A stretch of DNA of 44,787 bases, taken from positions 1-44,787 of the forward strand of contig JAJZCB010000023.1 of NCBI GenBank assembly GCA_021846285.1. Direction: 5' to 3'. The notes under the pieces were generated by a model. It made no database searches. It worked only from the letters and a program-made list of their open reading frames with translations, and was not told where the DNA came from. Both the position numbers and the translations under genes were made by a program. Position 1 is the first letter of the stretch. Every line of letters begins with the position of its first letter. This DNA is from Bacillota bacterium. Its GTDB lineage: Bacteria > Bacillota > Bacilli > Alicyclobacillales > SLC66. This document shows, piece after piece, positions 11,386 to 35,650 of this stretch.

Positions 11386-11414
11386 AACCTTTAAGCGGCG
11401 CGCCGCCTAATTTT

Positions 11415-11580
11415 ATAGTACACGCTCAATTCCGATTCTCGGAAGCGGGGGAACCAAGCAATTGGGGTGAATTCGGTGAACAACCGATAGGGGAACTCTC
11501 AACCCGAACCCGTCAGCTAACCTCGTCAGCGGAAAGAGGGGTGAACGGTTATGTCGATAACCTTCTCCGTCCAGTTCGCG
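11415..11580 (+). promoter_or_regulatory. ydaO/yuaA-class c-di-AMP riboswitch
   Basis: The conserved blocks of the ydaO aptamer appear in order: CGCTCAATTCC, GCGGGGGAACCAAG (11445-), TTGGGGTGAATTCGG, ATAGGGGAACTCTC, and the hallmark CCGAACCCGTCAGCTAACC with CGTCAGCGG (11504-11532), then GAGGGGTGAACGG and a GGTTAT/ATAACC hairpin. In this class c-di-AMP binding usually favours termination, and the terminator directly follows. The controlled gene is the 161-residue protein at 11650. Confidence 0.92.
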
Positions 11581-33565: not shown

Positions 33566-34093
33566 TTGTCAAGGATCCGCATTCTCCCAACGGTAACCGC
33601 TCTGATCCTCACGTTCGCAGTTTTGTTCGGGGGGCTTCAGATCTATCGGACATACGAAGTCGTACAGCCGCTTGAGTCGCAACTGGCAAAGATCCCGGCG
33701 GTTCAGTCGGTTCAGGTTGCAACGGGCGCGCAATCGCCGACGGTCGTGATCGCTCTTGCTAAGGTGCCCGATTTGCAGACCACATATACTCAGATTGAAA
33801 CCGAAGTGTCAAACAGCCTTGGCGGACCGATGAACATCAATTTGAAAGATCGCCGCACACCTGCGCTTGCCTCCGCCTACGAGGCCATGCAGCCGATTCT
33901 GCGTCAAGGAATTGCGCACGGCGATTATGTGACGATGATCAGCCAACTTGAGCACGCTGCAGCCGGGAAACAGATGACCTGCGTCGTTACGATGAACAGC
34001 CAGGACATCTTTATTCAGTTGGCGCAAAAGAGCAACTATCTTTATGGCATTGTTCCCTATACGATCATGGCGTCAGGGGTGAATGGACAGTGA
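33566..34093 (+). CDS. Single-pass membrane protein of unknown function, coupled to the FtsH-like gene
   Basis: About 175 residues with one N-terminal helix (LPTVTALILTFAVLFGGLQIY, residues ~6-26) and an extracytoplasmic domain of ~145 residues. That domain seems to contain two alpha/beta units (VQSVQVATGAQSPTVVIALA, and later KQMTCVVTMNSQDIFIQLA). I do not recognise the family. TTG 33566 is preferred because AGGGAGAG lies seven bases upstream; GTG 33557 is too close to those purines. Its stop overlaps the FtsH-like start by four bases (GTGA), a sign of fixed stoichiometry. The FtsH paralog lacks the extracytoplasmic domain of normal FtsH, and this protein could supply that part in trans. That is inference. 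Confidence 0.75.
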   Translation: MSRIRILPTVTALILTFAVLFGGLQIYRTYEVVQPLESQLAKIPAVQSVQVATGAQSPTVVIALAKVPDLQTTYTQIETEVSNSLGGPMNINLKDRRTPALASAYEAMQPILRQGIAHGDYVTMISQLEHAAAGKQMTCVVTMNSQDIFIQLAQKSNYLYGIVPYTIMASGVNGQ

Positions 34094-35577
34094 GAGATTG
34101 GCTGATTGGCGCTGGCGTGGCCGTTGCCATTTTTCTGGCTTTGATTGGCATCAATGTGTTGCCGTTGCTTGTGCTGGGCGCACTCGGATTCGCTTTCTAT
34201 ACATTGATCGAACGAAGACAGGTCGCTCCGACCGGTTCCAAGGAAGCGGCGATCAGGCACTCTGTTCATTTTGACCACATTGGCGGGCAGGACCACGCAA
34301 AACGAGAATTGATGGAAGCCCTCGATTTTTTGCGTTATCGGGATAAGATACGATCGTTGGGAATCCGACCCCTCAAAGGGATTTTGCTCACTGGGCCGCC
34401 CGGAACGGGTAAAACCATGATGGCCAAAGCGGCCGCCACTTACACGGATTCTACTTTCGTGTCGGCCTCTGGCAGCGAGTTCGTCGAGATGTACGTTGGC
34501 GTTGGCGCCCAGCGGGTCCGGGAACTGTTTCGCAAGGCTCGTCAGAGCGCGCGCAAGGAAGGCAGGGACAACGCCATTGTATTCATCGATGAGATCGACG
34601 TTGTGGGTGGGAAGCGGGGTGCGCACAGCCATCAGGAGTATGATCAGACGCTGAATCAGTTGCTGACTGAAATGGATGGCATGCAAACCACACAGACTCC
34701 CATGGTCCTTGTCATTGCCGCCACGAACAGGGCGGACATTCTCGATGGCGCGCTTTTGCGGCCAGGCCGTTTTGATCGGCAAATCAAAGTGGATTTGCCC
34801 GACAAGGAGGGCCGCTTGCATATTTTGCGGATTCAGACGAAAGACAAGCCGCTTTCTGAGGATGTAGATCTTGAACATATCGCCAGAGAAACGTTTGGGT
34901 TTTCAGGCGCTCAACTGGAGAGTTTGGCCAACGAAGCTGCGATCATCGCACTTCGCCAGAATGCGCAGCGGATCACCCAGGACTTTTTTCGCGACGCGGT
35001 GGATAAGGTGTTGATGGGGGAGAAGACAGGTCGTCTGCCAACTGTCCAGGAACTGTATCGCGTCGCGGTTCACGAACTGGGTCACGCCGTCGCCTCGGAA
35101 GTGATGCGTCCGCATTCTGTGTCGCACATCACGATTGCGCCGCGGGGCAACGCGCTGGGTTTTGTGCGGCAGATTCCTGAATCGGACGGATATCTGTACA
35201 CCAAAGAACAGTTGGATCAACAGATCGTGGTGGCCCTAGGCGGCGCCGTTACTGAGGAGTTGATTTTTAGCAACCGTTCGACAGGGGCGCAAAATGACTT
35301 TCTTCAGGCCAGTCGCATCGCCCGCACGGAAGTGATGTGCGGTCTCAGCCGCATTGGCATTGTGGCCGAGGAACATTTGCCTGAAACGATACTTGATGAA
35401 GAAGTGCGACACATTCTGGCGGCGATTGAGGGTAGAACTCGCGATGTGCTGGCGCCGTATGCGGAAGCGCTCAAGACATATGCGGATTATGTTGTGTCTC
35501 AGGAGAGCATTGATGGAGACAGTTTCCGGTCGTGGCTTTCCGAGTGCGCTGACGCCCCGCAACCAGTCGCCAATTAA
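34090..35577 (+). CDS. Short FtsH-like AAA+ zinc metalloprotease
   Basis: A 495-residue membrane protease of the FtsH family. The N-terminus holds only a hydrophobic hairpin (residues 4-39), without the usual extracytoplasmic domain, so it is about 120 residues shorter than normal FtsH. All active parts are present: GPPGTGKT at 102-109, the pore loop MYVGVGAQRV, Walker B VFIDEID with Asp167-Glu168, the second region of homology TNRADILDGALLRPGRFDRQ, and the zinc site HELGH at 328-332 with the Asp ligand in STGAQNDF. It is therefore expected to be an active ATP-dependent protease. A housekeeping ftsH normally sits by tilS and hpt, so this is probably a second copy. It replaces aspB of the B. 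subtilis order. Confidence 0.9.
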   Translation: MRDWLIGAGVAVAIFLALIGINVLPLLVLGALGFAFYTLIERRQVAPTGSKEAAIRHSVHFDHIGGQDHAKRELMEALDFLRYRDKIRSLGIRPLKGILLTGPPGTGKTMMAKAAATYTDSTFVSASGSEFVEMYVGVGAQRVRELFRKARQSARKEGRDNAIVFIDEIDVVGGKRGAHSHQEYDQTLNQLLTEMDGMQTTQTPMVLVIAATNRADILDGALLRPGRFDRQIKVDLPDKEGRLHILRIQTKDKPLSEDVDLEHIARETFGFSGAQLESLANEAAIIALRQNAQRITQDFFRDAVDKVLMGEKTGRLPTVQELYRVAVHELGHAVASEVMRPHSVSHITIAPRGNALGFVRQIPESDGYLYTKEQLDQQIVVALGGAVTEELIFSNRSTGAQNDFLQASRIARTEVMCGLSRIGIVAEEHLPETILDEEVRHILAAIEGRTRDVLAPYAEALKTYADYVVSQESIDGDSFRSWLSECADAPQPVAN

Positions 35578-35615: not shown

Positions 35616-35650
35616 AAGCCCGCTCATTGCATTGCGGGTCTTTTCTTTTT
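35616..35650 (+). terminator. Intrinsic terminator between the FtsH-like gene and asnS
   Basis: GCCCGC and GCGGGT stem with a ten-base loop, then TCTTTTCTTTTT. It ends the protease transcript. Confidence 0.75.

Follow-up and report, generated by a model that had tools for sequence, protein, structure and literature searches.

A conserved gene pair in Bacillota encoding a short FtsH-like protease and a membrane-anchored partner with a predicted extracytoplasmic domain

Two overlapping genes in a 44,787-nucleotide stretch of Bacillota DNA, referred to below as the window, probably encode a single dedicated membrane AAA+ metalloprotease of two subunits, a short FtsH-like AAA/M41 protein and a membrane-anchored partner that would serve it in trans as an outside cap or adaptor. 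Across the phylum the two genes are inherited together, stay adjacent in changing surroundings and show correlated divergence. A survey of open-licence papers, covering short or split FtsH, FtsH near pgsA, cinA or recA, and FtsH in sporulation, returned no description of the pair, which by that literature is an AAA/M41 protease of an unreported two-gene design.

The coordinates of the two genes and their four-base overlap agreed with the first-pass annotation of the window, which had been made from the sequence without database searches, and the same arrangement of stop and start codons occurs in homologues. The features of the locus are listed in Table 1. The ribosome-binding site of the protease gene lies inside the 3' end of the partner gene. 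A promoter scan gave no more matches than expected by chance. The terminator-like hairpin downstream of the protease gene is absent from the terminator scan, its loop being longer than the scan allows; its position suggests that the operon ends before asnS.

Table 1. Features of the gene pair and its products (window coordinates).
Feature	Coordinates	Strand	Remarks
Partner gene	33566..34093	+	TTG start, RBS AGGGAG upstream, stop 34091-34093, 175 aa
Partner membrane helix, residues ~6-28	33581..33649	+	Hydrophobicity maxima in full-length homologues; AF2 model
Partner outer domain 1, residues ~31-95	33656..33850	+	Alpha-beta-beta-alpha-beta; AF2 model
Partner outer domain 2, residues ~96-166	33851..34063	+	Three helices, then three strands; AF2 model
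GTGA overlap of partner stop and protease start	34090..34093	+	4 nt
Short FtsH-like AAA/M41 zinc metalloprotease	34090..35577	+	GTG start at 34090, 495 aa; Pfam/NCBIfam
Bare two-helix membrane hairpin, residues 2-44	34093..34221	+	Replaces TM1, outer domain and TM2
Walker A GPPGTGKT, residues 102-109	34393..34416	+	
Zinc motif HELGH, residues 328-332	35071..35085	+	
Third zinc ligand D403 (STGAQND)	35296..35298	+	
Terminator-like hairpin (6 bp, 10-nt loop) with T-rich tail	35618..35650	+	Read by eye

Products of the two genes

The downstream gene product had been described as an FtsH-like protein that keeps every catalytic and ATPase motif while lacking the extracytoplasmic domain, and both parts of this description hold. 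The sequence contains Walker A, Walker B, the pore loop, RPGRFDR, HELGH and D403, and the Pfam models AAA, AAA_lid_3 and Peptidase_M41 match with 141, 49.6 and 112 bits respectively, which places the protein by motifs and domains in the AAA/M41 membrane protease superfamily. Among 124 short homologues, HExxH is kept in all 124, and the Walker, pore-loop, SRH and third-ligand motifs show few variants. On these sequence features the protein is clearly an AAA/M41 enzyme, for which hexameric, ATP-dependent proteolysis is predicted. Its best named relative, from Sulfoacidibacillus thermotolerans, is 86% identical, in keeping with a source for the window among acidophilic relatives of the Alicyclobacillaceae.

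The match to the NCBIfam model FtsH_fam (TIGR01241) scores 461.7 bits, below the curated equivalog cut-off of 600 bits, and spans model positions 156-596 of 598; since it starts only at position 156, the N-terminal part is missing, and the extracytoplasmic domain that lies between the two helices of FtsH equivalogs is absent from the window protease. In the AF2 model (pLDDT 82.8, 34 sequences) a hairpin is followed by a disordered linker, which leads into the AAA/M41 core. The hairpin helices, residues 2-19 and 24-44, are joined by a 4-residue turn with no domain between them; G7 and P25 are conserved, and the turn is GxNxxP-like. Positive charge at both ends of the hairpin suggests that both are cytoplasmic. 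Canonical FtsH (TIGR01241) and the short protease have in common the ATPase, the pore loop, the arginine finger region, the HExxH and Asp zinc site, a membrane anchor with the catalytic part inside, and a core identity of about 40-45%. The short protease differs in its bare hairpin and in a Walker A motif that comes about 90 residues earlier (residue 100-112 across the 124 short homologues, compared to 187-257 in canonical FtsH), as well as in its gene neighbourhood and its near-obligate neighbour gene. All sampled short proteases form one separate clade beside canonical FtsH, with an SH-aLRT support of 99.

The partner begins with a single helix at the N-terminus, after which come about 145 residues. 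By the positive-inside rule, the predicted topology is N-in/C-out, with the C-terminal part extracytoplasmic and a cytoplasmic tail of about 5-8 residues and no cytoplasmic effector domain. In the AF2 model (pLDDT 88.5, pTM 0.75, 43 sequences) the membrane helix continues to residue 41 as one long helix (6-41). Domain 1 contains strands 46-52 and 59-64, helix 70-85 and strand 90-94; domain 2 contains three helices within residues 99-134 and three strands within residues 138-164. The earlier assignment of the outside domain to no known family was upheld, as the window partner matches no Pfam or NCBIfam family above cut-off and no model in these libraries matches the 43 partner sequences consistently. 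TseB/PepSY and other known families were rejected as candidates on the same ground. The best match of the partner profile to PDB sequences has an E value of 0.03.

A structure search with the partner model placed domain 1 close to domain 2 of PrgK (4oyc; Z 8.2, 79 of 83 residues, 2.4 Å) and to EscJ (1yj7; 74 columns, 3.4 Å), although a Z near 8 can be background in this search, where unrelated chains score about equally; many matches to ribosomal protein S3, zinc-transporter and pantothenate-synthetase structures had scores close to those of PrgK and EscJ. The alpha-beta-beta-alpha-beta order of outer domain 1 corresponds to that of the ring-building-motif proteins PrgK, EscJ and SpoIIIAG, and SpoIIIAG, which forms rings in sporulation, is N-terminally anchored like the partner (PMC6934232). 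The second domain differs, however, and the likeness is one of predicted fold; it may reflect a common simple fold, and we regard it as a lead rather than a classification. A split-off periplasmic domain of FtsH was also considered as the origin of the partner and found no profile support (hhalign probability 1%, P 0.024 against the canonical FtsH outer-domain profile). That domain is not among the partner structure matches listed, which does not itself exclude a relation.

Distribution, gene neighbourhoods and sporulation genes

The coupling of the two genes proposed in the first-pass annotation was examined in 299 Bacillota genomes of at least 90% completeness. With a threshold of E <= 1e-140 for the short-protease HMM, stricter than the values of roughly 1e-116 to 1e-136 that canonical FtsH reaches, the protease was matched in 212 genomes, and the partner HMM matched 204. 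In each of the ten genomes with a protease and no partner HMM match, a one-helix ORF of 156-200 aa lies directly upstream of the protease gene, and most of these ORFs give weak partner scores. The final tally was 213 genomes with both genes, one with the partner alone, none with the short protease alone and 85 with neither, such that the pair is found in about 70% of the sample and is jointly present or jointly absent in 298 of 299 genomes (Fisher p 5e-75, phylogeny ignored). The protease of one genome with both genes (G077) is cut by a contig end. Both genes are also missing together within genera (G175 versus G125, and G151 versus G263).

Direct adjacency was observed at 29 of 29 loci in one set and at 57 of 60 diverse loci in another, the two sets sharing some genomes. 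The three exceptions are L147 and L164, with 3.4 kb and 1.8 kb between the genes, and L168 in genome G263, where the genes are unlinked. Separation or independent loss in many relatives was not what the survey returned: departures from strict pairing amount to these two insertions, the one unlinked genome and the single draft genome (G199) with the partner alone. A contig scan of GTDB species genomes found the partner beside all 51 short-clade loci with enough upstream DNA; no partner-type gene was present at canonical FtsH loci in the same scan, and the 80 loci retained from it included no short-clade member from outside Bacillota.

Several of the sampled loci have features of their own. A second, partial partner copy is also present at L164. 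Genome G222 carries two short proteases and two partner matches, suggesting duplication of the pair. The unlinked genes of G263 and the genome in which the protease was not found, G199, belong to one genus (g130; L209, L211, L220), in which the partner is located near obg-like and nadD-like genes.

The pair occurs in at least five different gene neighbourhoods and has moved as a unit. In the window the order is a ypmA-like DUF4264 gene, tseB(ypmB), the pair, asnS, dnaD and a PRK-family kinase gene (Pfam). The locus had been described as occupying the aspB position of a conserved gene order, which is right for this lineage with its tseB(ypmB)-pair-asnS-dnaD arrangement; in Bacillus the interval between tseB and asnS is filled by aspB. 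The more general order in Alicyclobacillaceae and Paenibacillaceae is dinG-(tseB)-pair-asnS-dnaD. Most Clostridia-like genomes have ftsK-rodZ-rimO-pgsA-pair-cinA-thpR-recA-recX-rny, and another neighbourhood reads pknB-rsgA-rpe-pair-cinA. At L136 the neighbours of the pair are a gene for an mrp-like ATPase and genes resembling a membrane hydrogenase; at L156 they are flagellar genes. In Thermoactinomyces the pair is flanked by an mtaD-like gene on one side and by 3-hydroxyacyl-CoA dehydrogenase-like, ackA-like and aspB-like genes on the other. Gene names for the cluster representatives and for L136, L156 and L052 were assigned by eye.

Distances among partner sequences correlate with those among the proteases (r 0.52-0.67), and the partial correlation after removal of rimO, recA and cinA distances is 0.37-0.55 (Mantel p 0.0005), compared to 0.09-0.29 for partner-neighbour controls. 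As judged from these sequence distances, the rates of partner and protease correlate beyond those of the neighbouring genes.

In the sampled genomes, the pair is restricted to those with sporulation genes. Spo0A_C was found in 262 of the 299 genomes and SpoIVA in 256; a complete short protease occurs in 212 of the 267 genomes that have one or both of these sporulation markers and in none of the 32 that have neither (Fisher p 6e-20, phylogeny ignored; genome-list intersections compiled by hand). Four carriers that would count as non-sporulating by Spo0A_C alone have both SpoIVA and SpoIIIAE and were rejected as exceptions, and three carriers without a SpoIVA match have Spo0A. The remaining 55 marker-bearing genomes do not contain the pair, which is therefore not needed for sporulation as such. 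A use in sporulation or envelope stress had been guessed at the outset; the first part stands in that all carriers have sporulation markers, with the reservation that the correlation carries phylogeny. The weakest step of the argument is that this restriction suggests use of the pair in the developing cell or in some other envelope task of endospore formers.

A two-subunit protease and its alternatives

In the usual account, FtsH is a single subunit complete in itself. We consider it likelier than the readings weighed below that the two genes described here form one protease of two subunits. The short protease would assemble as a cytoplasmic hexamer in the manner of FtsH, the partner helices may pack against its hairpins, probably through the conserved glycines, and the outer domains could form a ring or cap above the hexamer. 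Such a cap would recognise or gate membrane or extracytoplasmic substrates, which would then be drawn across the membrane for degradation on the cytoplasmic side, a role comparable to that of the FtsH periplasmic domain and of HflKC, Mgr1/Mgr3 or prohibitin partners elsewhere. The complex itself, the kind of substrate and any part played in sporulation are all predictions of this scheme. The predicted topology would explain why two genes persist everywhere, since the partner C-terminus should lie outside and the protease N-terminus inside, making a simple fusion impossible.

An extended version of this scheme is speculative and, taken as a whole, rather unlikely. In it the pair would be an undescribed phylum-wide class of two-component AAA protease, with an extracytoplasmic subunit that forms a ring and takes the place of the FtsH outer domain, and would act while the endospore develops, for instance in reshaping the membranes that separate mother cell and forespore.

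Strict pairing and an operon structure are also to be expected if the partner is no structural subunit but serves the short protease as its dedicated substrate, or as a negative regulator, in a regulated-proteolysis switch. In E. coli, FtsH needs roughly 20 cytoplasmic residues to start on a membrane protein. The very short partner tail falls below this requirement and makes the partner better suited as a stable subunit than as a substrate, the protein has no cytoplasmic domain through which a switch would act, and loss of a regulator should have left lone proteases, of which none was seen in 213 genomes. This alternative appears improbable. We give still less credence to a short protease that works alone, like a single-helix i-AAA without adaptors, with the partner as an unrelated co-transcribed envelope protein. 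AAA/M41 cores can indeed be active without a distal domain, as the i-AAA core illustrates (PMC5438985), but the near-perfect joint presence and absence, the joint relocation to several neighbourhoods and evolutionary rates that correlate more closely than those of partner and neighbouring genes all argue against independent functions. Lastly, with the 4-nt overlap the protease is read in frame -1 relative to the partner, as programmed -1 frameshifting at GTGA into a single FtsH with an N-terminal outer domain would have it; this fusion was ruled out for practical purposes, given that the junction register varies among lineages from -14 to +15 nt (-14, -8, -4, -1, +2, +4, +5, +7 and +15 in the 51 scanned loci), the partner stop frequently preceding the protease start, that every protease gene has a ribosome-binding site of its own, that no in-frame fusion was seen, and that a C-out partner and an N-in protease need another helix to join them.

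The two-subunit arrangement has counterparts among known systems. In E. coli, HflK/HflC provide an outer, membrane-anchored partner that governs the membrane AAA protease FtsH (PMC12048511). Both belong to the SPFH proteins, and the FtsH that they engage has its own periplasmic domain, whereas no SPFH family appears among the Pfam/NCBIfam matches shown for the 43 partner sequences. The yeast i-AAA protease Yme1 is served by the membrane-anchored adaptors Mgr1 and Mgr3 and resembles the short protease in being an AAA/M41 enzyme that has no domain of the m-AAA type between two helices (PMC5438985); unlike the short protease, it has one helix and an N-terminal domain, and its adaptors are not encoded in an operon with it. 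In Bacillus subtilis the membrane protein YqgP acts as a substrate adaptor of FtsH (PMC7231995), but YqgP is itself a rhomboid protease, polytopic and equipped with a cytosolic domain, and the FtsH that it serves is the ordinary one. In all three systems the protease retains its own distal domain, in contrast to the short protease. An outer domain apparently supplied in trans, in a second system beside an ordinary FtsH, falls outside the accepted family models, and the pair constitutes a natural experiment on the role of the FtsH outer domain. Many spore-forming lineages probably have in it a new protease for protein quality control or regulation, and the two uncharacterised genes track sporulation genes; Bacillus subtilis, which to our knowledge has only FtsH and YjoB, would not have revealed it.

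Other FtsH-like proteins and remaining window features

The presence of a normal full-length ftsH, which the first-pass annotation had listed as a point to check, was confirmed: the window genome encodes an ordinary FtsH of 639 aa beside a hypoxanthine phosphoribosyltransferase-like gene, and canonical FtsH is likewise kept in 16 of 16 genomes checked. Two to three ftsH copies have been noted in acidophilic Bacillota (PMC10490939).

Elsewhere in the window, a c-di-AMP riboswitch (ydaO/yuaA leader) is matched at full length with 104 bits at positions 11413-11545. The segment 24948-33432 carries a dinG-like helicase gene about 5 kb from ypmA-tseB, and genes resembling a Rex regulator, MTA phosphorylase, an amidohydrolase and surE lie between them.

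A third AAA-M41 protein of 527 aa is encoded on another contig of the window genome (C121; L003, positions 1312-2895). It has apparently one membrane helix and no partner gene alongside, and in the phylogeny it forms a long branch near the canonical FtsH side. A similar single-helix form of 477 aa is found at L156 (12586-14020, reverse strand), a few kb from the short-FtsH pair of that locus.
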